A DNA stretch of 63,239 bases from Lachnospiraceae bacterium (GTDB lineage Bacteria; Bacillota; Clostridia; Lachnospirales; Lachnospiraceae): contig JAGBLN010000026.1 in assembly GCA_017635395.1 (NCBI GenBank), forward strand, positions 1 to 63,239. Direction: 5' to 3'. The notes under the pieces were generated by a model, which saw only the letters and a list, made by a program, of their open reading frames with translations, was not told the origin of the DNA and ran no database searches. The translations under genes were made by a program, and so were the position numbers. Numbering within the stretch: position 1 is the first letter of the stretch; each line of letters starts with the position of its first letter. Shown here one piece after another: positions 13,743 to 58,908 of this stretch.

Positions 13743-15104
13743 TTAAAGAGCATTTTTCTTCATAGTATAAATATGAACCAATGCATCATTAAGCCGTTCT
13801 TCCGTAATGGCTCCGTCATTTATGGAATCCATCAGGTACTGGTATGTTGTCTCAAAATCAGAACTTACATAAACCATATCTGCGCCAGCGTTTATCGCCC
13901 TCAGAGCAGCCTCCTGCTGGGAAAACTCAGCATCCTTCGCAATAACAGCCAGGTCATCCGTAATTATCACCCCTGCAAAGCCAAGCTGACCGCGTATATC
14001 ATCATTGATAAGCGATTCTGATATATATGCCGGCACGGAATTTCCGTCTGAATCACTTACTGCAAGATTGCCCACCATGATTGCTCCTGCCCCCTCGTTT
14101 ACAGCAGATTCAAAGGGTTTGTAATCAAACTCCCGAAGTTCATCCAGCGTTTTGCCTATTTCTGTCATCCCACCCTTAGGTGCAGAGCTTAAAGCCCCCT
14201 GTCCAGGGAAAGTATAAATGCACGAAACTATATTCTGATCTGAAAGCCCCGACACTGCTGAACCAGCCATGGATGCCACGATATCAGCATCAGATCCAAA
14301 AGATGCTTTGGCCTCATACGAGCCGTCCACGGCAACATCGCATAAAGGTGCTATATCCATATCAATATTATATTCATTCAATGCTGAGCCAATGGCAAGG
14401 TAAGCCTGATATGCATTGGTATTATCACCGGACGATCCAAGTTCCGGCCCTGAACTTATCTCCGCATCCAGAGCAACAGTTTTATTTGCGCTTCCGTCTT
14501 CCTTGACAGCCACAAGCAGGCCCCTCAGCTCATTTTCAGACGCATATACCTCAGCATATATATCCTTTGTTTTAGAAATAAGAGTCTTAAACTGTTCAGA
14601 ATCAACCCAGTTGTCCTTGTCATAGATCAAAATGCCTACCGGATATTTTTCAAGTGCAGCCTTAGTGCCTTCCCCAGCCTGTGTTGCAGCAGTTACTCCG
14701 GTAAGAGCCTCAGGTGTAGTCATTATAAGCGCACCGGCTTTTTCTTCAACACTCATGGACTCTATAGCAGCCAGAATATCAGGATCCACAGAAGATTCCT
14801 CCGGCGCATCTTCCGGAACTGAATCTTCAGAAACAACGTCTATATTGTCAGGCGTGGAAATAATAGCCTCCTCTTCAGATACTGAAGGTGTGGTTGCCAG
14901 ATTTTCTGAAATCCTCGCTTCAGTTTCAGCACGCTTTTCATTGAAAAAATCAGCCAGCTTTCTTACGCCGTAATATCCGCCAAGCCCGATGCAAAACATT
15001 ATTACAACAAGGAGCAGATATGCCAGCACCTGATTTCTCATCTGGCGTCTGCGCCTGATTTTTCTGCGTGATTCCGATGTAGTTTTTTTATTGTTCTTTT
15101 TCAT
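13743..15104 (-). CDS. GH3-family (NagZ-like) protein with degenerate catalytic motif
   Basis: 453 residues: basic N-terminus, one membrane helix (about residues 26-48), a Ser/Glu-rich linker and a GH3 N-terminal barrel from about residue 110. The nucleophile region GVIITDDLAV is intact (Asp383). In NagZ the loop K-H-F-P-G-H-G carries the residues for sugar binding and the acid/base His; here it reads YTFPGQGALSS (Tyr297-Thr298, Gln302), so these residues are lost. It is therefore a membrane-anchored beta-N-acetylglucosaminidase homologue that is either inactive or altered in specificity. Monocistronic, following the non-coding RNA unit. Confidence 0.82.
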   Translation of the reverse strand: MKKNNKKTTSESRRKIRRRRQMRNQVLAYLLLVVIMFCIGLGGYYGVRKLADFFNEKRAETEARISENLATTPSVSEEEAIISTPDNIDVVSEDSVPEDAPEESSVDPDILAAIESMSVEEKAGALIMTTPEALTGVTAATQAGEGTKAALEKYPVGILIYDKDNWVDSEQFKTLISKTKDIYAEVYASENELRGLLVAVKEDGSANKTVALDAEISSGPELGSSGDNTNAYQAYLAIGSALNEYNIDMDIAPLCDVAVDGSYEAKASFGSDADIVASMAGSAVSGLSDQNIVSCIYTFPGQGALSSAPKGGMTEIGKTLDELREFDYKPFESAVNEGAGAIMVGNLAVSDSDGNSVPAYISESLINDDIRGQLGFAGVIITDDLAVIAKDAEFSQQEAALRAINAGADMVYVSSDFETTYQYLMDSINDGAITEERLNDALVHIYTMKKNAL

Positions 15105-15295
15105 AGTTTTACTCTTATTCTATATCCGATACTGCCCACGCCCGCCGGCATAAAACATTCAGTCTCCCTTATCTGTTTACTCTCAAAATTATTACAATTT
15201 AAGAAAAACAAGCATAATTATATCATAGTAGTTTTCCGTCTGCCATACTTATATTCAAGTATACATAAAATTTTTCTGTAACCCATCAAAAACTC
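15105..15295. other. Intergenic, no feature seen
   Basis: 191 bases between the non-coding RNA terminator and the GH3-like gene. AT-rich; I see no open frame, tRNA or hairpin worth reporting. It probably holds the GH3 gene promoter, but no convincing -35/-10 pair stands out. Confidence 0.4.
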
Positions 15296-15346
15296 AAAAA
15301 TAAGAGCCCTTACAAATCATCTGTTTACGATCTGCAAGGGCTCTTA
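15296..15346 (-). terminator. Terminator of the non-coding RNA
   Basis: 11-bp stem TAAGAGCCCTT/AAGGGCTCTTA (15301-15311 and 15336-15346) enclosing a smaller stem, followed by T5 on the minus strand. Confidence 0.85.
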
Positions 15347-15800
15347 CTGTGACTCAATGTCCAATGGACTTTACCTCCTGATTGAGAATCCTTTGTCCTT
15401 TCACCGAATTTACTTCGAGGACTCAACCTTATTCAATTGACCTGCTATCGAATTCGCCCTGCCTATCATCCTCCATCTTTGTTCTTTAAACTGCGATGAT
15501 ACTTTTTCAACTCACCGCTTTCCCCTTTGATGAACCTTAAATAAGCTTGCTCTCTTCGACTCCTGTACCTCCCGGATATATCCCGTCATTCTATCGAGTT
15601 GTTCCTGCTTTCTCGTCACAGGGTGTTCTCTACATTTCTTCAGGGATGAACACCTAAGATACTTTACTTAATGCTTGGGCGGTCCGTACCTCCTATTCTA
15701 AGTGATCCTTGACAACTTTGCTGATCTGACCAGTTTCATCATCAGTGCAATTGTTCCGCCTTTCTCTTTATATGTTATCAACAACTCTCTGTTGTTGTTA
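15296..15800 (-). ncRNA. Structured non-coding RNA candidate, about 500 nt
   Basis: No minus-strand frame of useful length exists here, yet the unit has a promoter (TTGACA at 15828-15833, TAGTAT at 15806-15811) and a strong terminator. The predicted RNA starts with a hairpin (15780-15799) and holds a 7-bp stem GGTGTTC/GAACACC (15622-15628 and 15648-15654), a GGATATATCC palindrome and a GTCC-ATT-GGAC hairpin near the 3' end. Three Shine-Dalgarno-like octamers (A/G)GGAGGTA occur at 15687-15694, 15566-15573 and 15372-15379 without a reading frame after them. It lacks the hallmark sequences of tmRNA, RNase P RNA and SRP RNA as I know them. I cannot assign a family; ROOL, GOLLD, raiA and related large RNAs should be compared. 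Confidence 0.65.
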
Positions 15801-15805
15801 TCTAT

Positions 15806-15833
15806 ATACTACCACAATAAAATAAATTGTCAA
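15806..15833 (-). promoter_or_regulatory. Promoter of the non-coding RNA
   Basis: Minus-strand consensus -35 TTGACA (15828-15833), 16-bp spacer, TAGTAT (15806-15811), with more TATA-like sequence just downstream. Transcription would begin near 15800. Confidence 0.65.
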
Positions 15834-18729: not shown

Positions 18730-21700
18730 TTACTGTTCCAGATACTTTTTCTCAAGATAATCAAGATAATCCTCTGCGGTCAGTTCCCGCCCCGTAATAT
18801 CCTTTATCCATTCAGCAGGATCCATGCGGTTGGCTTTAGCAAATACATGTTCTGCCATCCAGCTGTTTATCTTTTTGAAGCCATGTCCCGACAGCGACTC
18901 AAAGGGATCGAAATCTTCCTGCATTCTGCTTAAATACATTCCACCGTAAAAATTACCCAATGCGTACGTCGGGAAATAACCCAGGCAGTCGGTCCAGTGC
19001 ACATCCTGAAGCACGCCCGTAAGGTCATCATCCGGCCTGACACCGAGATACCTTTCATATTTTTCAGCCCACTTTTCCGGCAGTTCTGATACAGTTACTT
19101 TTCCGGCAGCCAGCTCCCGCTCCAGCTCATAGCGTATCATAATATGAAGCGTATATGTAAGCTCGTCGGCATCAGTACGTATCAGGGACGGCTGTACATG
19201 ATTAACGGCAGCATAAAGATCATCTTCGCTTACATCCTTCATAACATCAGGGAACACTTCACAAACCTTCGGATATATCAGATGTATGAAAGCCTCAGAC
19301 CGTCCTATGATATTCTCATAAAAACGCGACACAGACTCATGCTGTCCCATGGTCTTCATATCCTCGATATGATGTTTATAATCCTCCGAAGGCTGCAGCT
19401 GTTCAAAAAGAGCATGCCCACACTCATGTATCACGGTATATATATTGGAGAGGAAATTGTCCGGCTCAAAATGGGTGGTTATCCTGGTATCATCCTTTCC
19501 TATCCTGTCGGTAAAAGGATGCGTGGTAAGAGACCATGTTCCCCGTGTCCTGTCAAACTCCATCAAGTCCAGAAGATATTCCGTAATCTCTGTCTGCTGT
19601 TCATCTGTTACCCTTATATTCAGGAAATCAGTACAGACCTTCGCCTCACGGTCATGGATTTTTTCCATAATGTTAAATATACGGTCCCTGCATTCATCAA
19701 ACAGCTTATCAAGGATCTCGGTAGTCATTCCCGCTTCGTACTCATCCAGCATCCTGTCATAGACACATTTTGCCTTCGGTATGGCCTCAACCTCCCAGTG
19801 GCTTGTCCTTTCTATGTCTAGCTGAATCCTATGTTCAAGTGCATCAGCATACAAAACAAATTTATTTTCCCGTCTTGCCTTTATCCATGCATTCCATGCA
19901 TTCTTATTTGCCGCATCATATTTTTCCATATCCTCTGCCGTGATGTTCTTATCACGCAGATAGTCCTTGTAAAGCCTCCTGACAAGCATACCATCCGCAT
20001 CATCAAGCTGAGGATATTTAAGGTAAAGCTTGCCAACGGTCTGTATGAACTCATCCCTCTTACGCACGCGGTAAGCAGCTCCGGTCAGTGCCGTCGCAAC
20101 CTCGCCGGCATCCTCTATTCCTTCTTCAGGGCAGATTGTCTGCCTGTCAAAACTTACAAGCCTGTAAGCATGAAGGTATCTTTCTTCCTCTGTCAGCATT
20201 TTATCAAGCGCAGAAAGCAGGTGGTCAGTCTCTTTATCCTCCTGCTTTACATCCGCATAATCATTCCTGCCGTTATCAAGCATGTCCTGCAGCAGATAGA
20301 AGGTATTCTCGTAGTTTTCACCGCGTACATGCTCAAGTATATGGACAATCTCAAGTCTAAGTTTTTCATCATTAAGGCATTCTGCTATGACAGGCGAGTA
20401 TCTGGTACCGGCACCTTCCTGTATCTCACGGATGATATCTGACGGACGTTTTCCCACAGCATAACTTCTGCCGACGGTATCTGTAGCCGCATCCAGGCAG
20501 TCCGCTGCTGCTACAATGTCTATGATTATCTTATAGGGTGATGATGAAGTATCAAAATCCCCCGGATACCCCTTGCTGTTGTCGTACCATTTATGATGCC
20601 CCTTTGCAACATCAGCATATTCCTTTGTAGATTCATGGCTTTCAAGAAGCAAAGAGCCTACGCTGGGGTGATGCTTTAAAAGCTCAAATTCATGGTCCAA
20701 AAGCTTCCTGCCATATACAAATATGGTATCTATCATAGGAATCTTTCCAAAGTCATGACAGATTGCGGCATTGTAGCAGAACTTCTGTATCTGAGCTTCC
20801 CTCCACTCCACATCTGCTTCTTTTTTACAGCCACAGACACCGATGAAGGCCCTCGGCTTGAGCCTAAGCATATGTTTACACAGGCATAAAGACAGTTTTC
20901 CGACAAGCATGGAATGGACATATGTAGGCGGATGTATAGCCGCCATACTGTAGAGTCCCATCTTAAGAAAATCAGTTTTGCCGGGTATTTCCACAAAATG
21001 ATATATAAGCTCCGAAAAATATTCCAGCATCAGCGAGTAAGCACCGGCATTCGAAGCCTTAAATACATAGGCGATAACCCACTGATAAACTGAATCCAGA
21101 TTTTTCATGTCAGTTTCAGAAAGATCGCGCTGTCCCTCAAAACTGATAACATATTCAGCTGGTACCTGGATATTCGGAATAACAGAATCAAAATCATAAT
21201 CAAAACGTCGCCAGGTATAAAAAATATACAGAAGTTCCTTCCGGTATTCCGAAAGGCTTACAAGTCCGGCTCGATAACGGTTTCTTATGATAAGAAGCCT
21301 GACGCTGGCTTCAGGAAGGGTTTCACAGTTTTTTTCAGGATTTTGTCCCCAGATAGCGCGCATCTCTTCCAGCAGATCTACGATCTCCAGTCCCTGCTCT
21401 TCTGTTATCCCTCTGGGATTTCCACACTCTGTAGACTGGCCGATGTATTCAAGACTGCGCAGCTGATGATACTCCCAGTCATATTCCGGCGCCTGTTCCC
21501 TATAAAACCGGTCTTTTGAAAGATAGAAAGCCTCCTTTAATCTAGAAATAAAGATTTCGTTAGCCTCCGGCGAAAGATCTGTTTCATACATAAAAACAGC
21601 ATACCTGGAATTGATAAGTACCAGCTCCTTGCATTCCTTATCAAGGGCAGCAAATTTTTCCTTATCGAGAAATCCCCAGATCTCTTTCGCTGCATCAATG

Positions 21701-24072
21701 CCTTCTTCCCTATATCTTTTTATCAGTTCCTCGGCAGTTTTCATTCGCTTAGCCTGATGCATCATCTCATAACAAGAAGATATGTGTATATCAAGCTGCC
21801 TTACAAGCTCTGCACTATCCTGCTTTTCCCTTGCATCCTTAAGCAGCCTCCTGGATATAAGATATACCAGGCTCTGGTCATAATCAGAAAGATCCTGACC
21901 ATTTAAAAGCTCATTACAGAACTGCCTCAAACTAGCTGCAGTTTCCGGATCATAGCTTCTCTCATCCTCAAGCATGGGATAAAGTGTCAGTTCCAGTATC
22001 TTACGATTCTCTCCAGCTAACATTCCTATCTCTTTGAAATGCTGCCTGAGCAGGTCACCATAGCCCGATGCCACCCCGACCTCGTCTATCTGAGGGTTTG
22101 ATAGCTGCCTGATGCGCACCGTCCTAAGCACCACATCTTTTAGGCGCGTATCGAAATCCTGCATTACGCTTTCCTGCATAGTACGCAGCAAAAGATAAGC
22201 ATTTCTGTAGTGATCCTCCCTGCCTCTTTGAAGCAAGAAATCAATATCCTCTCTTACTTCAGCAAGTTCAAGAACAGATACCACTTCAGGCATATAATGG
22301 GTACCGCTGCCTTTCTTAAGATCAGCTATCAGCCCATCTGTAGTATGTGTACGCTTATAGCTTCTTCCTATCCTATCTGTAGAAGCATCGAGACAATCTG
22401 CAACAGTGACAATCTTTACGAGAATATTGCCGTTATCCTCGTTATCAGAAAGAATGGGATATCCCTTTTTGTTGTCATGCCATATGTGATGTTTTAATGC
22501 AATATCCGCATATTCCCTTGTTGAACCATATTTAGCCAGCCACCTGCTTCCCATTCCGGCATGTTCCCTTAGAAGAAGTTTTTCCTGCTCCACCAGATCC
22601 CTGCCATAGGTTGAAATGGTATCTATTACACTGATCTTGCCAAAATCATGACAGATTGCGGCATGATAGACATGGGAAAGTATGTATCCCTCATTGGTCG
22701 CCACATCCCTCACATTGTTGCAGCCGCATATTCCTATAAAAAGTTCCGGAGAACGCCTTATCATATGTTCACAGATACAGCGTGACAGAACAGCCACCTG
22801 CATACTATGGACATAGGTGGGCGGATGCAGGGCAGCAAGACAGCGCAGCCCCATCTGTTCAAAATCAAATTCTCCCGGAATCTGTATAAACGCACTAAGA
22901 AACATGCACAGATAATCAAGCATACATGAATATGCTTCATCACCGTTAGACTGCATTATATAATTGCATATCTGGAAATAAAATTCACGCAGCTGTTCCA
23001 GCAGTTCTTCATCAGTATCTTCTGGACATACAGTTGAAAGATATTCGGTAGGAACTAATATATTTGCCATTACCGAGTACATATCATACTTCGTATCGCC
23101 CCATTTTGTATAAAGGTCAACCAGCGACTTTCTGTAATTTTCAGTCCAAATCCTTCCGCTGAAAAAATAATTTCTAAGCTGCAGAAGTTCCATATGAAAA
23201 CGCGGAAGATGTTCCTCGTTTCCTATAGGATCCTCGCTCCACAACTCCACCAGCTCATCCATATGTCTGGCAATGCGTACGCACTGTTCTTTGGTCATAT
23301 TCCATGAGTTTCCGTTTTCCGTCAGCTGTCCGATATTTTCAAGGCATCTTATTTTCTGCCTGTTCCAGTTAAATTTAGGAACCGCATCCCGGTAAAAAGG
23401 ATCATCGGCTATGACAAGAAATCTTTCCATAGCCGAAAGCCGCTCCTCATTAACCTTTTCTCCCGTCATAAAAAAGCTGTCATAAAGAGCTGTATAAAAA
23501 TTCGCTATGATCAGGACTTTAGAACGGCTTTCAATATTCGCAAGTGTAAGGAAGCGGTTCTTATCGAGATAAGCTAACAGTCGTCTTGCTGCCCGCAGGC
23601 CGTTTCTCTGGAATGATTCCGTAATGTTCCGGTTAGTAACAACACGGTTTGCCCGTGTCATATTGTTATAGCAGGCATATATGTACACCCTTCCCCACCT
23701 GATTATCATGTCATCATCTTTTTTCTTGACGGCATCCTTATATAACTTTTCCGAAACAAGATAAAGGAGTGAAAGATCCAACTCTTCCTGTGGCCATGGC
23801 TTCAGAAGGTAATCACAGAATTCACCGAGAACATCCTGTATATCAGCCTTTAAAATTGAAGTATTTTCAAGAAGCGGATATAAAACATTTTTTAACATCC
23901 GCTTGTTGTCATTTGCAAGTACACCTATTTCTTTTGATTTAAGCTTAAGTTCCCTGCTGTATCCTTCACCTGTACCAACGCCCGAAGGATGGGCAACAGA
24001 AAGCAAACGTATCTTCCTGATACGCTGCACATAGGCATCTAATTCATTTTTAAGAATTTCCGCTTTCATCAT
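18730..24072 (-). CDS. Tandem HD-GYP protein fused to an M32 carboxypeptidase
   Basis: 1780 residues in one uninterrupted frame. Residues 1-635 and 640-1275 are two copies of one module: a helical N-terminal region and an HD-GYP-type domain (His475-Asp476 HDFGK, His528-His529, GYP 537-539; second HDFGK at 1106-1110, again with HH and GYP). HD-GYP domains hydrolyse c-di-GMP. From about 1280 a complete M32 metallocarboxypeptidase follows, with all six family motifs: HPF, DTRIT, HECGH (1549-1553, zinc), HESVS, IRTDAD and GVLQDVHW. M32 enzymes are normally free proteins of about 500 residues. No membrane segment or signal peptide, so it is cytosolic. ATGA overlap with the upstream paralogue couples translation. 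Confidence 0.85.
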   Translation of the reverse strand: MMKAEILKNELDAYVQRIRKIRLLSVAHPSGVGTGEGYSRELKLKSKEIGVLANDNKRMLKNVLYPLLENTSILKADIQDVLGEFCDYLLKPWPQEELDLSLLYLVSEKLYKDAVKKKDDDMIIRWGRVYIYACYNNMTRANRVVTNRNITESFQRNGLRAARRLLAYLDKNRFLTLANIESRSKVLIIANFYTALYDSFFMTGEKVNEERLSAMERFLVIADDPFYRDAVPKFNWNRQKIRCLENIGQLTENGNSWNMTKEQCVRIARHMDELVELWSEDPIGNEEHLPRFHMELLQLRNYFFSGRIWTENYRKSLVDLYTKWGDTKYDMYSVMANILVPTEYLSTVCPEDTDEELLEQLREFYFQICNYIMQSNGDEAYSCMLDYLCMFLSAFIQIPGEFDFEQMGLRCLAALHPPTYVHSMQVAVLSRCICEHMIRRSPELFIGICGCNNVRDVATNEGYILSHVYHAAICHDFGKISVIDTISTYGRDLVEQEKLLLREHAGMGSRWLAKYGSTREYADIALKHHIWHDNKKGYPILSDNEDNGNILVKIVTVADCLDASTDRIGRSYKRTHTTDGLIADLKKGSGTHYMPEVVSVLELAEVREDIDFLLQRGREDHYRNAYLLLRTMQESVMQDFDTRLKDVVLRTVRIRQLSNPQIDEVGVASGYGDLLRQHFKEIGMLAGENRKILELTLYPMLEDERSYDPETAASLRQFCNELLNGQDLSDYDQSLVYLISRRLLKDAREKQDSAELVRQLDIHISSCYEMMHQAKRMKTAEELIKRYREEGIDAAKEIWGFLDKEKFAALDKECKELVLINSRYAVFMYETDLSPEANEIFISRLKEAFYLSKDRFYREQAPEYDWEYHQLRSLEYIGQSTECGNPRGITEEQGLEIVDLLEEMRAIWGQNPEKNCETLPEASVRLLIIRNRYRAGLVSLSEYRKELLYIFYTWRRFDYDFDSVIPNIQVPAEYVISFEGQRDLSETDMKNLDSVYQWVIAYVFKASNAGAYSLMLEYFSELIYHFVEIPGKTDFLKMGLYSMAAIHPPTYVHSMLVGKLSLCLCKHMLRLKPRAFIGVCGCKKEADVEWREAQIQKFCYNAAICHDFGKIPMIDTIFVYGRKLLDHEFELLKHHPSVGSLLLESHESTKEYADVAKGHHKWYDNSKGYPGDFDTSSSPYKIIIDIVAAADCLDAATDTVGRSYAVGKRPSDIIREIQEGAGTRYSPVIAECLNDEKLRLEIVHILEHVRGENYENTFYLLQDMLDNGRNDYADVKQEDKETDHLLSALDKMLTEEERYLHAYRLVSFDRQTICPEEGIEDAGEVATALTGAAYRVRKRDEFIQTVGKLYLKYPQLDDADGMLVRRLYKDYLRDKNITAEDMEKYDAANKNAWNAWIKARRENKFVLYADALEHRIQLDIERTSHWEVEAIPKAKCVYDRMLDEYEAGMTTEILDKLFDECRDRIFNIMEKIHDREAKVCTDFLNIRVTDEQQTEITEYLLDLMEFDRTRGTWSLTTHPFTDRIGKDDTRITTHFEPDNFLSNIYTVIHECGHALFEQLQPSEDYKHHIEDMKTMGQHESVSRFYENIIGRSEAFIHLIYPKVCEVFPDVMKDVSEDDLYAAVNHVQPSLIRTDADELTYTLHIMIRYELERELAAGKVTVSELPEKWAEKYERYLGVRPDDDLTGVLQDVHWTDCLGYFPTYALGNFYGGMYLSRMQEDFDPFESLSGHGFKKINSWMAEHVFAKANRMDPAEWIKDITGRELTAEDYLDYLEKKYLEQ

Positions 24073-25970
24073 AGATTCTCACCGTAGAGAATGCTCTGTT
24101 CCGTAAAGTCCCTAATCCTCTGGTACGCCCTTGAATAGCTGTCACGCCGTCCCTGCTGCATAAGATACTCAACATCCTTGCGGACTATGTCTTCTTCCAA
24201 AAGTTCTGCAAGATAAGGTGCGTACCGAGTCCCGGCCCCCGCCTTCAGTTCTTCGGTAAACTCATCCAAAGTCTTTCCCTTGCTGTAAGAACGGCCGACC
24301 TTGTCCGTGGCTGCATCAAGTCCGTCTGCACAGGCGATAATATCAATTACAGCTTTTTCAGGAAGCGATGAAATATCCGCCTTGGGATAGCCATTGCTTC
24401 CGTCATACCACAGATGGTGATAACGGGCCACATTGGCATATTTTACTGTAGTGGCATGTTTTTCAAGCATGTATGCCCCAATTTCCGAATGTTCTTTTAA
24501 AAGATCATATTCCTCATCTAAAAGATTTCTCCCGTATACTGTTATTGTATCTGCAAGCATCATCTTGCCAAAATCATGACAAAGCCCAGCGTTATAGATA
24601 AAAGAAAGTATCTCCTGGGGATTGTCTGATCCGGTCATGCTAACTATACCGTCAAAAAGATGTGTTTCTTTTTTCAAGAGATGTCCGGCAAGGCACCGGG
24701 CAATCTGACCGACCATTATGCTATGAACATATGTGGGCGTATGAACAGCAGCAAGGTATCCAAGTCCCATGCTTTCAAACCCCCTTCCACCGGGAATTTC
24801 AACAAAATCAAGCATCTGTTTTGAAAGACAGTCTAAAAGATCACTGTTAACAAGACTCCCAGACGACTGATGGGCATAATCTAAGGTGTTTAGATAAAAA
24901 CGTTCGATATAGTACTTGTCCTTTTCAGAAAGGCGTTCGTTTTTTAATGACAGTATAAAATCCGTGGGAACCCAAAGGAACAAAACTATGTCTTCCCAGT
25001 TCTTCTCTGATCTGACATTGCGCAATTCATACATTTTAAGCAATTCGTTCCGGTATTCCCTTCCGGTAAGCTCACCGCTTAAGTATTCTGCCCTCAACAG
25101 CATAAACTGCAGCATATTTTCATCCATTTGGGTTGAAAACCACTGCTGGTCTGCCTGCCATAATTTATCTAACTCCCGCATTCGGCTGCAAATCTGCTTA
25201 AGCTGGTCTGCTTCAAATCCAGCCTCATTATTATGCTCTAAAATAATCCCAAAATAGTAATATATTCGTTCAACATGCAGTTTCCAGTCATAATCCGGCA
25301 TTTCCCTCAGATAATAAGGATCCTCTGACAGTTCCAGGGACTTTGACAGCCTGTCAAGCAGCCAATCCCTTTCCTCCCTGGTCATATACCTGCCTTCATA
25401 GAGCACTGTCGTATACCTGGAATTAACTATAACAATATGCCTGCTGTCTTTATTCAAAGCATCAAAATTTTCAGGGGACAGGAATTCCAGCAGCTTTTTT
25501 CCGGCCTTTAACCCCCTCTGCCTGTAATACTCTGAAATATCCGGTCTGTTGTAAATCTTTTTTGTAACAAATACCATGAAATAACATGATGTGACTTCAC
25601 GGTCAAGCTGAAGTATCAGGTCATCAGCAGAAGAATTCTTCTTTTCAGTCTGATCCAGTATCACGCCTGAAAGCTTTGCGTGCATGAAAGGATCAAGATG
25701 ATCGATCTTAAGCGAATCCTGAAGGGAATCTTCCAGTTGTCCAAGGGACTCTATGACATCATCATCAAGTACAGCATCCGGGGAAAGATAGGGATAAAAG
25801 CATTTTGAAAGAATCTCACGGTTTTCAGCCGCCAGCCTGCTTATGAGCAGATAGTTATCCTGCAAAACCATGCCATAATCATCTGCCGCCGCTATATCCT
25901 TAAGCTTGGCAGATGTAAGCATTCGAATCTTTTCCGTATTCTCGACATAGTTTTTCAGTTCTTCTCTCAT
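24069..25970 (-). CDS. HD-GYP domain protein, single module
   Basis: 633 residues, a paralogue of each half of the downstream fusion. A helical N-terminal region (MREELKNYVENTEKIRMLTSAK) is followed by the HD-GYP region with HDFGK at 465-469, YHHLWYDGSNGYP and CADGLDAATDKVGRSY. Predicted cytosolic c-di-GMP (or related nucleotide) phosphodiesterase or receptor; no sensor domain of known type is seen. The ATG at 25970 has no Shine-Dalgarno sequence, and the predicted promoter puts the transcript start at or next to the ATG. First gene of the operon. Confidence 0.85.
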   Translation of the reverse strand: MREELKNYVENTEKIRMLTSAKLKDIAAADDYGMVLQDNYLLISRLAAENREILSKCFYPYLSPDAVLDDDVIESLGQLEDSLQDSLKIDHLDPFMHAKLSGVILDQTEKKNSSADDLILQLDREVTSCYFMVFVTKKIYNRPDISEYYRQRGLKAGKKLLEFLSPENFDALNKDSRHIVIVNSRYTTVLYEGRYMTREERDWLLDRLSKSLELSEDPYYLREMPDYDWKLHVERIYYYFGIILEHNNEAGFEADQLKQICSRMRELDKLWQADQQWFSTQMDENMLQFMLLRAEYLSGELTGREYRNELLKMYELRNVRSEKNWEDIVLFLWVPTDFILSLKNERLSEKDKYYIERFYLNTLDYAHQSSGSLVNSDLLDCLSKQMLDFVEIPGGRGFESMGLGYLAAVHTPTYVHSIMVGQIARCLAGHLLKKETHLFDGIVSMTGSDNPQEILSFIYNAGLCHDFGKMMLADTITVYGRNLLDEEYDLLKEHSEIGAYMLEKHATTVKYANVARYHHLWYDGSNGYPKADISSLPEKAVIDIIACADGLDAATDKVGRSYSKGKTLDEFTEELKAGAGTRYAPYLAELLEEDIVRKDVEYLMQQGRRDSYSRAYQRIRDFTEQSILYGENL

Positions 25971-26018: not shown

Positions 26019-26049
26019 AAAAAACACCCTTCGCATATTGCGAAGGGTG
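26019..26049 (-). terminator. Terminator of the opp operon
   Basis: Perfect 11-bp stem CACCCTTCGCA/TGCGAAGGGTG (26025-26049, 3-nt loop) and T6 on the minus strand, after oppA. Confidence 0.9.
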
Positions 26050-26071
26050 CAGAAAAACTGTGTACTAAAAC

Positions 26072-27886
26072 TTATTTAATAGTTGTATACATGAAATACT
26101 TGTATCCAAGAGGATTTGAGAAGAATCCGTCTACCTTGTCGGAGAGCAGGTACATATCAGTGTAGAAATACAGCGGGCAGATGCAACCTGTGCTCATGAT
26201 CATATCCTCTGCCTCGTGCATCATCTTGTAACGGTTATCATTATCAGTGCAGGACTTAATGGATGAAATGAGCACATCATAAGTCTCAGCCCATGTGCCG
26301 TTCTCCACCTTGGTATCGAAACCATAAGGTGTAAGGTCAATGCTGTAAACAGCATCATCTGCATGGTCACCGCGGCCGAACTGTACATCATTGTTACCGG
26401 AATCAGTTGTCCACATATCTAAGAAGCAGATAGGATCGTTGTAGTCAGCAAGCCAGCCGTTACGTGCGATAGAATATGCACCATCCTTACGGGTATTAAG
26501 GAATGTAGCCCACTCCTGGTTCTCAAGGTTCATTGTGATACCAATGCCTGCCATAGCATTCTGCAGATACTCTCCTATAGCCTTATGGCCTTCACTTGTG
26601 TTGTAGATATATGTAAGTACAGGGAAATCAGTAAACTTGCCTGAGGTCTCATCATATGTATAATACTTCTTTAAGATCTCTACAGCTTCGTTGAAATTAT
26701 CAGTATAAGCATCAGCAGATACATTGTAATATCCATCGAAATCACTACTTACGCCTACATTCTTGTAGAACTGGCTGCCGTCAGCATCCGTAAGTCCCAT
26801 TGATACGAAAGAAGAAGCAGGAAGCTCACCACCCTGTGCCACATCATTTACGATATAGTTACGGTCAAAGAGAAGTCCTACTGCCCTTCGGATCTCAGCC
26901 TTTGCATTCTCATCATCAGCATAAGGGCTTCCAGCAGGAAGGATATCCTCATTTACATTCCAGCATACATAGTATGTACCAAGCTGGCCTGCAATAACAA
27001 ACTGGTCATTGAATTCTGACTTCACGCTGGCTATCTCATTTGTGGGGATATCATCAATCAGCTGCCAATCACCGTTTTTGAAGTTCGTCAGCATATTGTT
27101 CTGATCATCCGAAAGATAGAAATTAATGGTATTCATTGTTATCTGGTCAGCATCGACAAAGGAATCATTCTTTTCAAGAGTGATCAGACTGTTGTGCTCC
27201 CATGATGCCATCTTATAAGGTCCGTTGCATACATATGTGGAAGGATCTGTTGCCCACGCCTCGTTGGAAACCACATCCTCACGGACAGGGAAATACGTAG
27301 GGAAAGCAAGAAGCTCATTCCAGTATGATACAGGATTATAGAGTGTAACTACGATAGTCTTGTCATCCGGTGCCTGTACATTAAGCTTTGCATCAGGATT
27401 GGCAGGTGTGCCGTCCTCATTTACATCAGCAACTTCGTTATATCCGTCAACTACCTCAAACATATATCCGTAGTCGGCAGCAAGCTCTGCGGATGCCGCA
27501 CGGTTCCATGCGTATACGAAATCAGAAGCCTTAAGATCCTGTCCGTCCGACCACTTGAGGCCGTCACGAAGTGTGTATGTGTAGGTTATGGTACCGTCTG
27601 CATTCTCCACACCTTCAGGAAGCTCTACGGCCGCATCGGGTACGATTTCAAGAACACCGCTGTCGTTCATCTCCCACTTGGAAAGACCGGAATACAGGTG
27701 TACAAGAAGTGTTGCGCCGTCAACTGCAGAATTAAGTGCAGGATCGATAGTATCAGGTTCTGAGCCGATACATACGTTGATCGAGCTGTCTGCTGATGAA
27801 CTGCCGCCCGGTGTTGACTCACAGGCAGTAAGGGCAGTCACAGCCATGACGCCGGTCAGAGCCATTGCCAAAAATCTTTTTTTCAT
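26072..27886 (-). CDS. oppA: Oligopeptide ABC transporter substrate-binding lipoprotein
   Basis: 604 residues. Signal peptide with lipobox ALTACES (Cys22), then a family 5 solute-binding protein (CIGSEPDTIDPALNS at the N-terminus, WSDGQDLKASDFVYAWNRA typical of OppA/DppA). It captures peptides outside the membrane and delivers them to OppBC. AAGGAGG precedes the ATG. Last gene of the operon, 97 bases after oppF, so it may also be expressed on its own. Peptide size preference cannot be read from sequence. Confidence 0.92.
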   Translation of the reverse strand: MKKRFLAMALTGVMAVTALTACESTPGGSSSADSSINVCIGSEPDTIDPALNSAVDGATLLVHLYSGLSKWEMNDSGVLEIVPDAAVELPEGVENADGTITYTYTLRDGLKWSDGQDLKASDFVYAWNRAASAELAADYGYMFEVVDGYNEVADVNEDGTPANPDAKLNVQAPDDKTIVVTLYNPVSYWNELLAFPTYFPVREDVVSNEAWATDPSTYVCNGPYKMASWEHNSLITLEKNDSFVDADQITMNTINFYLSDDQNNMLTNFKNGDWQLIDDIPTNEIASVKSEFNDQFVIAGQLGTYYVCWNVNEDILPAGSPYADDENAKAEIRRAVGLLFDRNYIVNDVAQGGELPASSFVSMGLTDADGSQFYKNVGVSSDFDGYYNVSADAYTDNFNEAVEILKKYYTYDETSGKFTDFPVLTYIYNTSEGHKAIGEYLQNAMAGIGITMNLENQEWATFLNTRKDGAYSIARNGWLADYNDPICFLDMWTTDSGNNDVQFGRGDHADDAVYSIDLTPYGFDTKVENGTWAETYDVLISSIKSCTDNDNRYKMMHEAEDMIMSTGCICPLYFYTDMYLLSDKVDGFFSNPLGYKYFMYTTIK

Positions 27887-27983
27887 AATTTTCCTCCTTC
27901 TGCCGCTTCAGGCGGCGTTAAACTGTATATTATCCGCATAATGAAACATTCAATGCGGTAATAACCATAATATGCGATGCAGC

Positions 27984-28982
27984 TTATCCGATCTTACCTT
28001 CTTCAACCAGATGGCAGGCCACAAAATGTCCGCCGCCCATATCCTTAAGTTCAGGCATCGATTCAGCGCACTTATCACACGCATGCGGACACCTGGTCCT
28101 GAAAGGACATCCTGAAGGCGCATTGAGAGGACTGGGGATATCACCGGAAAGCACTATCCTTTTATTCTCTCTGGCAATCTTGGGATCCGGAATCGGAACT
28201 GCTGAGATGAGTGACCTTGAATAAGGATGAAGCGGATGATCATAAATCTCTTCCGCATCCGCAAGCTCCACCATCCTGCCAAGGTACATAACCGCTATCC
28301 TGTCGCTTATATGACGCACCACCAGCAGGTCATGTGCTATGAAAAGATAAGTAAGTCCCAGCTTTTCCTGAAGCTCATCAAACATATTTATAACCTGAGC
28401 CTGTATGGAAACATCCAGTGCAGATACAGGTTCGTCGCAGACTATGAATCCGGGCTTTAATGCCAAAGACCTTGCTATTCCTATACGCTGTCTCTGACCT
28501 CCGGAAAACTCATGGGCATAGCGTGATGCATGCTCGCTGTTAAGTCCCACATACTCCATCAGCTCAAGTATACGGTCACGCCTTTCCTTACTTGAGGAGT
28601 ACATCTTATGAATATCCAAAGGCTCAGCTATTATATCCGCCACAGTCATGCGGGGATTCAGTGAAGAATACGGATCCTGAAAAACCATTGTCGCTTTCTT
28701 TCTGAAGTCCTCCAGACTCTTCTTATCCCCTATTTTTACACCGTCATACCATATTTCGCCGTCTGTGGGTTTATAAAGATGCAGTATGGTCCGTCCTACG
28801 GTTGTTTTTCCGCAGCCGGACTCTCCTACCAATCCTAAAGTTTCACCCTTCTTTATGGTAAAAGAAACATCATCCACTGCCTTAAGGGGCCTGGATTTGA
28901 AAAATCCTTCGCTTATATCAAAATACTGTTTTAGGTGCTTAACCTCAACGAGAGGCATATCCTGCTTTTTTTCTTCTGCCAT
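27984..28982 (-). CDS. oppF: Oligopeptide ABC transporter ATPase OppF
   Basis: 332 residues. Walker A GESGCGKT, signature SGGQRQRIGIARSL, Walker B FIVCDEP, and the C-terminal cysteine-rich GCPFRTRCPHACDKC extension of Opp/Dpp ATPases. Energises peptide import together with OppD. Its ATG shares one base with the oppD stop (TAATG). Confidence 0.93.
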   Translation of the reverse strand: MAEEKKQDMPLVEVKHLKQYFDISEGFFKSRPLKAVDDVSFTIKKGETLGLVGESGCGKTTVGRTILHLYKPTDGEIWYDGVKIGDKKSLEDFRKKATMVFQDPYSSLNPRMTVADIIAEPLDIHKMYSSSKERRDRILELMEYVGLNSEHASRYAHEFSGGQRQRIGIARSLALKPGFIVCDEPVSALDVSIQAQVINMFDELQEKLGLTYLFIAHDLLVVRHISDRIAVMYLGRMVELADAEEIYDHPLHPYSRSLISAVPIPDPKIARENKRIVLSGDIPSPLNAPSGCPFRTRCPHACDKCAESMPELKDMGGGHFVACHLVEEGKIG

Positions 28983-29968
28983 TATGCCTCACCGCCTTCC
29001 ATATCTTTTTTTACATTCATCCAGCAAGCTGCTGCATGAAGATCGTTTATCTGCATGCGTTCGCACTTTTCCTTAAGGCAGATCCGCATAGCCGCGTCAC
29101 ATCGGGGCGCAAAGGCACAGCCCTTAGGCATATTCAAAAGGTCAATGGGCGTACCTGTTATGGGCTTAAGCTTTTCCTTGCCGCCGTCGGCCGTAGGTAT
29201 TGACCGTAAGAGTCCCTTGGTATATTCATGGCAGGGATTGTAAAAAATCTCATCAGCACTTCCCTGCTCACATATTGCGCCTGCATACATTACTATCACT
29301 TCGTCGCACATCTGAGCCACTACACCAAGGTCATGGGTGATCATAATGATAGCCATTCCCAGTTCTTTCTGAAGCGATTTCATAAGCTCTAATATCTGTG
29401 CCTGAATCGTTACATCCAATGCGGTTGTAGGCTCGTCCGCAATCAGAATGTCAGGCTCACACGCAAGAGCCATTGCAATCATCACACGCTGCCTCATACC
29501 GCCGGAAAACTCATACGGATACTGGTTCATTCTCTTTTCCGGCTCATTAACATTAACCAGTCGGAGCATCTCCAGAGCCCTTTCCCTTGCCTGTTCTTTA
29601 TTCCTGTCAGTATGCAGAAGAATAGCTTCCATCAGCTGATGTCCTATGGTGTATGTAGGATTTAAGCTGGTCATGGGATCCTGGAAGATTATGGATATTT
29701 TATTTCCGCGAATGGTCTTCATAACTTTTTCACCGGAATCAACCAGCTCCTGACCGCGGAATTTTATGGAACCTGAAACTATCTTTCCGGATCCTGCCAG
29801 TATCTGCATTATGGAATAAGCAGTCACGGATTTACCTGATCCTGACTCGCCCACTATTCCCAGCACTTTGCCTTCATCAAGGAAAAAGGACACGCCATTG
29901 ACAGCTTTTACCTCGCCGGCATCCGTAAAGAAGGAGGTATGCAGATCTCTTACTTCAAGCATGCTCAT
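28982..29968 (-). CDS. oppD: Oligopeptide ABC transporter ATPase OppD
   Basis: 328 residues. Walker A GESGSGKS, signature SGGMRQRVMIAMAL, Walker B ILIADEPTTALD, and the C-terminal GCAFAPRCDAAMRICL motif. Forms the ATPase pair with OppF. AAAGGAGG precedes the ATG; 14 bases after oppC. Confidence 0.93.
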   Translation of the reverse strand: MSMLEVRDLHTSFFTDAGEVKAVNGVSFFLDEGKVLGIVGESGSGKSVTAYSIMQILAGSGKIVSGSIKFRGQELVDSGEKVMKTIRGNKISIIFQDPMTSLNPTYTIGHQLMEAILLHTDRNKEQARERALEMLRLVNVNEPEKRMNQYPYEFSGGMRQRVMIAMALACEPDILIADEPTTALDVTIQAQILELMKSLQKELGMAIIMITHDLGVVAQMCDEVIVMYAGAICEQGSADEIFYNPCHEYTKGLLRSIPTADGGKEKLKPITGTPIDLLNMPKGCAFAPRCDAAMRICLKEKCERMQINDLHAAACWMNVKKDMEGGEA

Positions 29969-29982
29969 CTGTTTTTCCTCCT

Positions 29983-31050
29983 TTAAGTATTGAGCTTCGG
30001 ATCAAACGCATCGCGCAGTCCGTCACCGAAAAGATTAAGCGACAGCACGATCAGAGAGATCACGATAGCAGGTATGACCATTCTATAGGGATATGAACTG
30101 ATGCCGTTAAGAGCATCAGACGCAAGCGAACCAAGGGACGGCATAGGCGCATTAACACCTAGACCAATGAACGAAAGATAACTTTCCGTAAATATCGCAC
30201 TGGGGATCTGCAGTGCCACAGAGATAAAGATAACGCTCATACAGTTCGGCAGAAGATGACGGCTTATGATCCAGCCGCCCTTTGCTCCGGCTGCCTTTGC
30301 TGCAAGCACATATTCCTGCTCGCGGAGAGATAGCATCTGTCCCCTTATGAGACGCGCCATGGAAACCCAGTAAAGAATACCGAATACGATAAAGAGGCTT
30401 ATGATATTGGAACCTATGGCCTCAAGGATAGTGCCTTCTATAGCAGTCCCAAGCACCAGCTTAAGCACCGATGCAAGAAGTATTACCATAAGCATATCAG
30501 GCAGCGAGTATATGATATCAACCACCCGCATTATGAAAAGATCCACCTTGCCTCCACAGTAACCTGATATAGCGCCCACTGTCAGGCCGATCACAAGAAC
30601 TATAAGGCTTGCAAAGAAACCTACAGCCAGTGATATACGGGTTCCATATACGATACGGATAAAATAATCACGGCCTGCAGAGTCCGTTCCGAACACATGG
30701 GGGAAAACGCTCTCCCCTGCATCTATCAATGCTTTTTCTGAATTACTGTACTGAAAAGGCTTCAGATTGTTAAAGGAAGAGTCCATGGGCTGACCCGGTA
30801 CATTTCCCAGCATACTGTCATAGGAATAAGGCCAAACCATTGGAAGGAATATGGCCGCAAGAGTGATCAGGACTATAACGATAAAGCTTACAAATGCGAC
30901 TTTATTCTTGATAAGCCTCTTTACGCCGTCCTTAAAAAAGGTGGTAGACGGACGCATCTTGACAATATACGCCTTCTCTTCATCTGTTGCAGGAATAAGG
31001 TCATCCACATCAATATGCATGGTCAATTTTTTCTTACTGCTTTCTTCCAT
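29983..31050 (-). CDS. oppC: Oligopeptide ABC transporter permease OppC
   Basis: 355 residues. Six membrane helices, the long N-terminal extension of OppC types (VKRLIKNKVAFVSFIVIV), the FGTDSAGRDYFIRIVYGTRISL motif and the EAA loop region (EYVLAAKAAGAKGGWII). ATG at 31050; the only Shine-Dalgarno candidate is 15 bases upstream, so translation may rely on coupling to oppB, which ends 12 bases earlier. Confidence 0.92.
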   Translation of the reverse strand: MEESSKKKLTMHIDVDDLIPATDEEKAYIVKMRPSTTFFKDGVKRLIKNKVAFVSFIVIVLITLAAIFLPMVWPYSYDSMLGNVPGQPMDSSFNNLKPFQYSNSEKALIDAGESVFPHVFGTDSAGRDYFIRIVYGTRISLAVGFFASLIVLVIGLTVGAISGYCGGKVDLFIMRVVDIIYSLPDMLMVILLASVLKLVLGTAIEGTILEAIGSNIISLFIVFGILYWVSMARLIRGQMLSLREQEYVLAAKAAGAKGGWIISRHLLPNCMSVIFISVALQIPSAIFTESYLSFIGLGVNAPMPSLGSLASDALNGISSYPYRMVIPAIVISLIVLSLNLFGDGLRDAFDPKLNT

Positions 31051-31062
31051 CAGTTTTTATCT

Positions 31063-31992
31063 TTACTCCAGAGTAATCCTGGGATCCACGATCTTGTACA
31101 TGATGTCGCTTACCAGGTTCATTATTACGATCAGTGTTGCAAGTATTATAGTGGTACCCATTATCATGGGATAATCACGACCTGTAATGCTTGTTATAAA
31201 AGCCCGGCCTATGCCCGGCACAGCAAATATCTGCTCCACTACCAGGGAGCCTGTTACTATATATGCAAGCATTGGACCGAAATATGTGATGACGGGCAGC
31301 AGAGAATTCTTAAGTGCGTGCCCGAAGATTATTTTGAGATAAGGAACGCCTTTTGCCTTGGCAGTACGGATATAGTCCTGACCAAGAACATCCAGCATTG
31401 ATGATCTGGTAAGCCTCGTAATATAAGCCATGGGAGAAAGGGATAGCGTGATTATCGGAAGTATAAGGCCTCCTGACGCAGCTCCGTTTGCCGGAAAAAT
31501 ATGAAACTTGACCGTAAACAGTATGAGCAGCAGCGATCCCATTATAAAACTCGGCATTGAGACAAAGGCTGTAGTCAGCACCATGACTATCCTGTCCATT
31601 AGGGTATTCCTGCGCAGCGCTGCCACGGCTCCCAGTATAATTCCGGAAATAAGCGCTATGACAGCAGCGATCAGTCCGATAAAAGCAGAAGTCTTCATTC
31701 CGTCGAATATAACATCGGTAACGGTACGTCCCCGCTGTTTCAGTGAAGGTCCGAAATCAAACCGCGTCACTATATCTTTCAGGTATGTAACATATTGGAT
31801 AAAGAGAGGTTTATCCAGCCCGTATTTAGCCTCTAATGCCTTCTGAGCTGCCTCTGATATCGCTTTTTCACCTAAAAACGGCCCGCCTGGTACTGCATGC
31901 ATAACAAAAAAAGTCACCGTGATAACAACCCACACGGTTACGACAGCCAGTATGATCCTTTTTATTATGTACGCTACAGTCTTGCTATTCAT
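31063..31992 (-). CDS. oppB: Oligopeptide ABC transporter permease OppB
   Basis: 309 residues. Six helices; the N-terminus (YIIKRIILAVVTVWVVITVTFFVMHAVPGGPF) and the EAA motif region (DYIRTAKAKGVPYLKIIFGHALKNSLLPVITYFG) are typical of DppB/OppB. AAGGA nine bases before the ATG. It lies 13 bases after tetR. Confidence 0.92.
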   Translation of the reverse strand: MNSKTVAYIIKRIILAVVTVWVVITVTFFVMHAVPGGPFLGEKAISEAAQKALEAKYGLDKPLFIQYVTYLKDIVTRFDFGPSLKQRGRTVTDVIFDGMKTSAFIGLIAAVIALISGIILGAVAALRRNTLMDRIVMVLTTAFVSMPSFIMGSLLLILFTVKFHIFPANGAASGGLILPIITLSLSPMAYITRLTRSSMLDVLGQDYIRTAKAKGVPYLKIIFGHALKNSLLPVITYFGPMLAYIVTGSLVVEQIFAVPGIGRAFITSITGRDYPMIMGTTIILATLIVIMNLVSDIMYKIVDPRITLE

Positions 31993-36139: not shown

Positions 36140-37141
36140 ATGAAAACACGCAAGATAGTCGCAATCGTAATAGCTGTACTCGTCTGCTTTGTGATAGCTA
36201 TAACCTGCCTTTCAGGCATCTATACCATATCAGAGTCTCAGCAGGGCGTAGTATGCACATTCGGACAGCCCACCGGCATAGCAACACCCGGACTGCATTT
36301 CAGGATTCCCTTTGTGCAGGAAGTTATTAAGGTAGATACCACAATCAAGGGTTTTGATGTAGGCTATACTACCCAGGATGTCTATAACGCTGACGGCAGC
36401 TCCACTCCGGAATATACATCCACGGCTGATTCCATGATGATCACATCGGATTATAACTTCATAACCGTTGATTTCTATGTGGAATACCGTGTCACGGATC
36501 CCACCAAGAAGGTATTTGCCTCCCAGGATCCCGAACTGATACTTAAGAACATCGTTCAGAACAGCGTGCGTACCACCATCGGTTCCTATACCGTTGACTC
36601 CGTACTTACCACCGGCAAGAACGAGATACAGTCAAATATCTTTACGATGATAACCGAGAAGCTTGATACCTATGACTTGGGAATACAGCTTGTATCCATA
36701 AGCATGCAGGATGCCGAGCCCCCTACAGTTGAGATTTCCGAAGCATTCAAGGCCGTTGAAACCGCAAAGCAGGGAAAAGAAACCGCGGTAAACAACGCAA
36801 ATAAGTACCGCAACGAGCAGATCCCTGCTGCCAACGCCGAAGCCGACAGGATAATCCAGGAAGCGGAAGCAATGAAACAGGAACGCATAAACGAAGCTAA
36901 CGGACAGGTTGCAAGATTCCTTGCCGAGTATGATGAATATGTGAAATTCCCCGAGATGACCAGACAGCGTATGTTCTATGAAACAATGGAAGAAGTTCTG
37001 CCCGGCATGAAGATTGTCATAGAATCTGCTGACGGCGAAGTACAGACCCTGCTGCCCTTAGACAGTTTCTATGACAGCGGAAACAATTCCGGCTCTCCTA
37101 CCATAGACGACCTGATCAATGCACAGAAGGAGAATGAATAA
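36140..37141 (+). CDS. hflK: SPFH-domain membrane protein HflK
   Basis: 333 residues. One N-terminal membrane helix (about 5-27), then an SPFH (band 7) domain (ESQQGVVCTFGQPTGIATPGLHFRIPF) and a coiled coil rich in Ala/Glu (about 200-270); ends with the HflK-type TLLPLDSFY motif. HflK and HflC form a large ring that cages membrane protease FtsH and modulates it. GGAAAG precedes the ATG. hflC follows after two bases. Confidence 0.9.
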   Translation: MKTRKIVAIVIAVLVCFVIAITCLSGIYTISESQQGVVCTFGQPTGIATPGLHFRIPFVQEVIKVDTTIKGFDVGYTTQDVYNADGSSTPEYTSTADSMMITSDYNFITVDFYVEYRVTDPTKKVFASQDPELILKNIVQNSVRTTIGSYTVDSVLTTGKNEIQSNIFTMITEKLDTYDLGIQLVSISMQDAEPPTVEISEAFKAVETAKQGKETAVNNANKYRNEQIPAANAEADRIIQEAEAMKQERINEANGQVARFLAEYDEYVKFPEMTRQRMFYETMEEVLPGMKIVIESADGEVQTLLPLDSFYDSGNNSGSPTIDDLINAQKENE

Positions 37142-52864: not shown

Positions 52865-53665
52865 TTATTGTATTCCAAGATCAACATAGTACTCTTCCCC
52901 TGTGTTAAGGGACATGCATCCAAGACGGCTCGACTTGGAATTAAGCGCCATTCCGCAGTCTAAATCTATAAGCTTGTAGCCCCTGTAGGAATCAGACTTA
53001 AAAATCTTTCCCTTGCCATTTTCATCCAGATGATTGATACGCTGGGTAAAAATATGTCCCACGATGTATGTGTCATCCGGATACGCAAACGGCTTGGGCT
53101 GTCCATCAGCCTCAGGATCCCCGTACTTGTCGAGCAGGCTTTCCCATACTATCATCTCAGCCTGCTTCTTGGTTGCATTTTTATAGAAAAACTCCTGTCC
53201 GAAAGCCATCTGAAGTGAAAAGGAATGGGACAGGTGATAAGTAACATTTCCCAGCTTGACCCTCTTGATCAGACGGAGTCCCTTCAGATAACGCTCCATC
53301 TCATCCTGCTTCTTCCGGTTAAGCTTATAGAATGCCCTGTGGGTAGCCTCACCGCCGTTTGCGGCATGCACCCAAAGCTCGTAGGGATCGAGCTTCAGAT
53401 CATTATTCTCATTCCTGGCGATCCCCTTATCGCGCTTGCGGATATATTCTATCGCATTGAGCATCATCAGTTCATGGTTGCCGAGAAAAAGCTCCATATT
53501 CTTGCGTCTCATGATATCCTGTATGAGCTGTATACCGTCAGGGCCTCTGTCGATCACATCCCCCAGAACGTACATAAAATCATTATCAGAGAACCTGATC
53601 TTCTCAAGCATTTTTCTGAAGGTTTCGTAATGCCCATGTATATCGCTTAAAATATATATGTTCAT
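52865..53665 (-). CDS. PP2A-type metallophosphoesterase (protein phosphatase-like)
   Basis: 266 residues. The metallophosphatase motifs are all there: SDIHGH (7-12), GDVIDRGPD and GNHELMML, with further histidines in YHLSHS and VGHIFTQ. This is the lambda/PrpA-type serine/threonine phosphatase or ApaH-like branch. It could oppose the kinase encoded ten bases upstream. AAGGGG covers the kinase stop. Confidence 0.87.
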   Translation of the reverse strand: MNIYILSDIHGHYETFRKMLEKIRFSDNDFMYVLGDVIDRGPDGIQLIQDIMRRKNMELFLGNHELMMLNAIEYIRKRDKGIARNENNDLKLDPYELWVHAANGGEATHRAFYKLNRKKQDEMERYLKGLRLIKRVKLGNVTYHLSHSFSLQMAFGQEFFYKNATKKQAEMIVWESLLDKYGDPEADGQPKPFAYPDDTYIVGHIFTQRINHLDENGKGKIFKSDSYRGYKLIDLDCGMALNSKSSRLGCMSLNTGEEYYVDLGIQ

Positions 53666-53675
53666 CCGCTACCCC

Positions 53676-55559: not shown

Positions 55560-55668
55560 CTTGCCCCCAACTCTCGTTATAAATATTAAGAACCGAAAAA
55601 CGATCCCCTATGATAATTAAAAACTTTGTAGAATATTATACTATTATTATTTCTTTTTTTCCACCCTA

Positions 55669-57051: not shown

Positions 57052-57054
57052 TCA

Positions 57055-58851: not shown

Positions 58852-58908
58852 TTGAATTCTCCTTGATTTGCTCTGTTCCCAATAAACATTATATATAGTA
58901 AAACAATC

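Follow-up and report, generated by a model that had tools for sequence, protein, structure and literature searches.

What is a peptidase of family M32 doing in the same polypeptide as two HD-GYP domains, and do the two activities work together? The locus that raises this question lies in a Lachnospiraceae genome, within a stretch of 63,239 nucleotides that was analysed as a whole and is called the window here. The initial annotation had claimed two HD-GYP modules and a complete M32 carboxypeptidase in one frame of 1780 codons, and both Pfam and the motif positions agree with it; the domain search that it had suggested returned Pfam HD and HD_5, each above cut-off in two stretches (best 420-563 and 1100-1227), along with a single Peptidase_M32 match over its full length. 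In the ORF listing, the gene at 18730-24072 on the minus strand is a single unbroken frame with an ATG start (gene starts throughout are first start codons, not proven starts), encoding two units of about 630 aa followed by M32, with borders placed by Pfam and by a profile built from the three units of the window (A-C). The unit A gene lies just upstream and overlaps the fusion gene by 4 bp (ATGA); this gene and the opp genes further upstream had gone unmentioned in the initial annotation. The parts are as follows.

18730..24072, minus strand: fusion gene, unit B - unit C - M32 carboxypeptidase, 1780 aa (ORF, Pfam; kept in AB2028 and UBA4364)
22123..24054, minus strand: unit B, N-terminal region of about 395 aa plus HD-GYP, residues 7-650 (profile from units A-C; key residues intact)
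20239..22152, minus strand: unit C, same make-up as unit B, residues 641-1278 (profile from units A-C; key residues intact)
20206..20286, minus strand: linker from unit C to M32, about residues 1263-1289 (in frame also in AB2028, UBA4364 and G003)
18742..20205, minus strand: Peptidase_M32 domain, full length, with HECGH zinc motif (Pfam, motifs, PDB alignment)
24069..25970, minus strand: unit A, a protein of its own with the same make-up, 633 aa (ORF, Pfam, profile from units A-C)

Both HD-GYP parts of the fusion protein carry the HDxGK (475 and 1106) and HH...GYP (528 and 1159) motifs together with the metal-site residues that place them in this family. Across an alignment of 50 units, which takes in all units of the window, AB2028, UBA4364, the G007 fusion and G188 and leaves out those of G003, 14 positions of the active-site region are identical in 46; the four that deviate are a unit of G030, the latter of the two units behind M32 in G395, where the His of HD is lost, and the first half of each double-unit protein in G012 and G024. 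Within the double units of G012 (L067:11345-13252) and G024 (L068:8477-10387), several active-site residues are missing from the first HD-GYP and the second is intact. An acidic extra metal ligand has been described for one solved HD-GYP member, and the alignment to 4mcw stops short of that part.

As to the nucleotide, the HD-GYP part has its strongest PDB match in 4mcw (E 7e-14; entry name Metal dependent phosphohydrolase), which we take to be a c-di-GMP enzyme, and further PDB relatives include 4r8z, a cyclic di-GMP phosphodiesterase, and 5z7c, a 3'3'-cGAMP phosphodiesterase. Because the genome of the window also holds 31 GGDEF matches, c-di-GMP would be the likeliest nucleotide; the single DAC match suggests that c-di-AMP is probably made in this organism as well and, with the cGAMP relative, leaves room for other nucleotides. 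The HD-GYP parts might thus not be c-di-GMP enzymes at all, their substrate being c-di-AMP, a cGAMP or some other phosphoester, or their role no more than metal binding, and the points in favour of this are, besides 5z7c and the DAC gene, a weak local match of the first HD-GYP motif to Lmo1466, an enzyme that degrades c-di-AMP, and an HH-GYP loop with one residue more than that of 4mcw. Against these stand the 4mcw and 4r8z matches, the GYP and metal-site residues that have been kept, and the number of GGDEF matches, and we consider this alternative improbable, albeit worth keeping in mind.

The region of about 395 aa that precedes each HD-GYP forms a sizeable conserved domain in its own right and is likely a sensor. 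It occurs in 14 of the 35 genomes of the genus, including all five that bear M32, and all but one small piece of its 48 matches there coincide with unit matches, so that it was never seen with another output domain in these genomes. Attempts to assign it to TPR or another known domain gave nothing convincing: a Pfam search with 33 such regions gave 30 families, of which the 25 listed were each matched by one member only (best E 0.00033) and did not include TPR, and the one PDB match (E 1.1) was not convincing. The units thus share a conserved N-terminal domain of considerable size to which no relatives are known.

The M32 part is likewise complete. Peptidase_M32 matches residues 1290-1777 over profile positions 3-489 of 489 (E 3.8e-142), and the structure of the B. 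subtilis enzyme, 3hq2, aligns over residues 11-492 of a 495-aa piece (E 1.1e-93). The full-length match and HEXXH with the other motifs place this part in peptidase family M32. All six motifs that the initial annotation had read, HECGH included, are borne out by this end-to-end alignment and by their positions (HPF 1518, DxRxT 1528, HExxH 1549, HESxS 1578, IRTxAD 1631 and GxxQDxHW 1686), following a motif list that we presume to define the family. Among the 57 rows of the M32 tree, HExxH and QDxHW are present in all, HPF/M in 55 (without it in G395 and G090), the HE..SR pattern in 55, and DxRxT in 54 (without it in G105, G090 and the partial G438).

Because the genome of the window is a draft, 72.63% complete and in 58 contigs, the fusion might be an artefact of assembly or annotation. 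The same fusion, with a nearly identical linker, is however found whole in AB2028 (L063; 1778 aa, domains 93-94% identical), which we presume to be a cultured strain and whose record carries no MAG label, and in UBA4364 (L061; 1780 aa, 85-90% identical), a MAG of another species; a stop or frameshift at residues 1270-1290, or homologues always split there, had been named as what would speak against the fusion, and the junction is in frame in both. In G003 the fusion gene reaches the contig end inside M32, and its two pieces were analysed separately. The fusion is under purifying selection: NG86 estimates for three genome pairs put dN/dS at 0.04-0.11 in unit B, unit C and M32 alike, ratios that are rough because dS exceeds 1 in several comparisons, with silent sites close to saturation in some; the linker, at about 30 codons, was left out of this calculation. 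Values below 0.12 across the domains again argue against an artefact, which, with two further genomes carrying the fusion whole, we reject as next to impossible. Separate internal translation of M32 was also rejected, since the AGGAGG of the linker in the window reads AGGAAG in AB2028, UBA4364 and G003, and since no in-frame ATG, GTG or TTG was seen by eye at the proper distance in the linker. A plasmid collection gave 57 records matching the fusion protein, none covering more than 80% of the query, and the eight matches listed concern the M32 part alone (27-28%); no PHROGs family matched the fusion protein. Between the window and AB2028, dS is 0.29 in M32 (18730-20205) and 0.10 in the adjoining gene, hom, compared with 0.6-0.9 in units A-C and the binding protein, as if this end had been touched by recombination.

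Relatives within the genus suggest how the gene was assembled. G006 and G021 carry, at the corresponding locus, the opp genes (four of the five present as ORFs in G006), an inverted unit A homologue and a 1270-aa double-unit protein whose C-terminus corresponds to the end of unit C; M32 is missing from that locus, and neither genome has an M32 match elsewhere. Double-unit proteins are also found in G012, G024, G032 and G017, and the unit tree (53 rows; stretches below about 450 aa and L064, the same place as L068, were dropped) places the two halves of these proteins with units B and C. In view of this locus and of the double-unit relatives without M32, M32 was probably added later to the end of a pre-existing double-unit gene; its loss from the other double-unit genes is a possible alternative.

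The pairing is not confined to this gene. Within the genus, M32 occurs in five of 35 genomes and is fused each time. In G007 the order is reversed: its 1136-aa protein has M32 at residues 10-497 and HD-GYP further on, at about 919-1091, and a response-regulator receiver gene follows directly. This receiver-only gene (L066:14511-14885) is itself followed by a Band_7/SPFH gene (14882-15826) that is 46% identical to the gene at 36140-37141 of the window. G188, which belongs to another genus and is the sole representative of that genus in the sample, encodes a 1134-aa protein with HD-GYP at 418-596 and M32 at 648-1130; upstream of that fusion (L117:9266-12152), beyond one LRR_5 gene, are genes for a MoxR-like AAA protein and a DUF2201 metallopeptidase/VWA protein. 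In two further genera the two families are neighbours on the same strand: in G395 an M32 gene is followed after 9 bp by a unit gene and after another 3 bp by a second unit gene, and in G200 an M32 gene is followed after 14 bp by a unit gene split into two frames.

Both trees are quick trees with SH-aLRT support only. That of M32 has 57 rows, comprising 56 loci of the genus and family surveys plus G188, with L001, L101, L111 and L113 dropped as repeats and without matches lacking a retrieved locus, the G003 pieces and the second M32 of G116. It places the M32s of the window group (window, AB2028 and UBA4364), G007, G200, G395 and G438 together (SH-aLRT 92, not starred) and that of G188 far off, and the AU test rejects a tree in which the five fused rows are forced into one group (p 1.8e-50) but not one in which this is done for the window group and G007 only (p 0.40). 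In the unit tree, the HD-GYP units of the window group are placed apart from that of G007, with long terminal branches for the units of G007 and G188; this separation and the reversed order make separate fusions in the window group and G007 likelier than a shared one. The trees thus point to at least two, and probably three, independent HD-GYP/M32 fusions.

Such fusions are rare. The family survey found M32 in 108 of 397 genomes, most of these genes standing alone as the initial annotation had supposed, and fused only in the genome of the window and in G188; frames above 600 aa were limited to these two and G348, some M32 matches being partial at contig ends. G348 was rejected as a fusion, as its 758-aa frame has no unit match and its first-start ORF is 631 aa with M32 at 139-621. 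In the class survey (47 M32 matches in 46 of 391 genomes, three partial) only that of the window lies in a frame above 571 aa, and 195 surveyed relatives of G200 gave no new fusion. Outside the genus, five genomes have both M32 and a unit at E <=1e-60: the two are linked in G188, G200 and G395 and unlinked in G299, and in G438 the M32 is at a contig end. The looser limit of 1e-30 added nine (G261, G277, G335, G360, G376, G378, G448, G451 and G458), none linked, with M32 and unit on different contigs in eight and about 96 kb apart in G451. Unit counts in the family, class and G200-relatives surveys are lower bounds, as at most about three candidates were scored per genome.

These data bear on whether the fusion is neutral, that is, an ordinary peptide-recycling M32 joined by chance to a neighbouring gene, with the parts remaining independent. 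The enzyme is common in stand-alone form, the fused M32 retains the usual motifs and would need no partner for its activity, the adjoining genes of G395 and G200 represent a natural step before fusion, and ten genomes outside the genus have both families unlinked; on the other hand, there was more than one fusion event, with both orders represented and M32s from two clades involved, and no other fused M32 was seen in the class survey. On balance we find a neutral fusion rather unlikely. That the pairing recurs suggests instead that M32 and the units gain from being together and that the two activities may work together, and separate fusions in two orders make this a good guilt-by-fusion case.

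The neighbouring genes offer a possible cue. Upstream of unit A are two further features.

26024..26050, minus strand: terminator-like hairpin of 12 pairs plus a T-run, between the opp genes and unit A (pattern scan only)
26072..31992, minus strand: oligopeptide-type ABC importer (opp), an SBP_bac_5 protein plus four further ORFs (lies upstream; retained at some related loci)

The binding protein was identified by Pfam and NCBIfam, and the two ATPases and two permeases were named by sequence likeness, as were the homoserine dehydrogenase and aspartate kinase genes that lie downstream of the fusion on the same strand; a TetR-type regulator gene precedes the importer. Opp genes (>=65% identity) are near units at eight of 36 loci, some of these loci being short contigs, and the distance to the unit gene is 38-190 bp at six (window, L061, L063, L071, L072 and L157) and 1.9-2.6 kb at L077 and L159. 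They are near none of the four other M32-linked loci, so the link to opp is one that belongs to the units. The hairpin speaks against a transcript shared by opp, unit A and the fusion gene, although the scan found 11 such patterns against 9.8 expected in shuffles, this one having the longest stem listed. For these reasons, the case for a link with the importer is less strong than that for M32. AB2028 has a gene for a hybrid histidine kinase (HisKA, HATPase, receiver; L063:17242-19185) that begins 12 bp past the fusion gene; it is absent from the window, where the gap between the fusion and the following gene is just 139 bp. The unit triad of G012 and G024 (L067, L068) adjoins an ABC/CARDB/kinase-like gene cluster whose homologues in the window, at 52865-59820, are at least 28 kb from the fusion.

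The opp neighbour suggests imported peptides. Rap, NprR and PlcR are receptors of Firmicutes for peptides imported by Opp, and the locus could encode peptide signalling of the Rap/NprR kind with a second-messenger output: the importer would bring in a signal peptide, the N-terminal regions would receive it, HD-GYP would be the output and M32 would digest the signal. The distances between opp and unit genes and the large conserved N-terminal domain are consistent with such a system; the failure to find TPR among the families listed or a convincing PDB match, the hairpin and the lack of opp at the other M32-linked loci count against it, and we judge it distinctly unlikely. Similarly doubtful is an intracellular peptide sensor in which the domain of about 395 aa would read imported peptides, HD-GYP lower a cyclic dinucleotide and the carboxypeptidase destroy the cue, one polypeptide sensing, signalling and resetting.

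Taken together, we propose a bifunctional cytosolic protein that couples peptide trimming to cyclic-dinucleotide turnover, a reading that we consider evenly poised between right and wrong. The M32 part would be an active zinc carboxypeptidase removing residues from the C-terminal end of peptides, both HD-GYP parts would either hydrolyse a cyclic dinucleotide or respond to it as a switch, with c-di-GMP as the likeliest candidate, and the region before each would sense, so that joining them may bring peptide breakdown and second-messenger turnover into one complex. Peptide supply adjusting local cyclic-dinucleotide levels would be the more likely direction, and the nucleotide adjusting the peptidase the less likely. 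We infer the enzyme activities, their coupling, its direction and the identity of the nucleotide from full-length domains, intact motifs, purifying selection and recurrent fusion or gene pairing; the points against are that most M32s of the family stand alone, that both families occur unlinked in the ten genomes mentioned, the motif losses in the G395 unit and M32, the split unit gene of G200, the single genome that represents the genus of G188, and the importer missing from the other M32-linked loci. The initial annotation had supposed that the peptidase might be tied to a nucleotide second messenger, and that idea has gained a real and conserved fusion, at least one further fusion (probably two) and two gene pairs elsewhere, the coupling itself staying at the level of a proposal. 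If the activities are coupled, the protein would connect the breakdown of peptides directly, at the molecular level, with signalling by cyclic dinucleotides, and AB2028 would make this testable.

The initial annotation knew of no description of this combination, and, judged by titles and abstract openings of mostly non-subscription papers, we likewise found none in the literature. A link from peptides to c-di-GMP has been proposed for Fervidobacterium islandicum AW-1 (PMC13157175); in the parts of that paper available to us, the link is a proposal and no fusion is named. Compared with HD-GYP phosphodiesterases (4mcw/4mdz/4me4, 4r8z and 5z7c), the units are alike in HDxGK, HH, GYP and a late Asp, and with 4mcw also in the R-x-Y region, but differ in the N-terminal region, the tandem arrangement, the HH-GYP loop longer than that of 4mcw and the fused M32. 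The M32 part resembles solved carboxypeptidases (3hq2 from B. subtilis; 5wvu, Thermostable carboxypeptidase 1; 1k9x) in HEXXH and the other motifs and aligns with 3hq2 nearly end to end, but the seven solved relatives are chains of 489-510 aa, whereas here the domain occupies the C-terminal end of a 1780-aa protein. With Rap, NprR and PlcR the locus shares an opp importer beside units at some loci and an intracellular peptide as possible cue, but there is no TPR among the families listed here, and the output would be HD-GYP.
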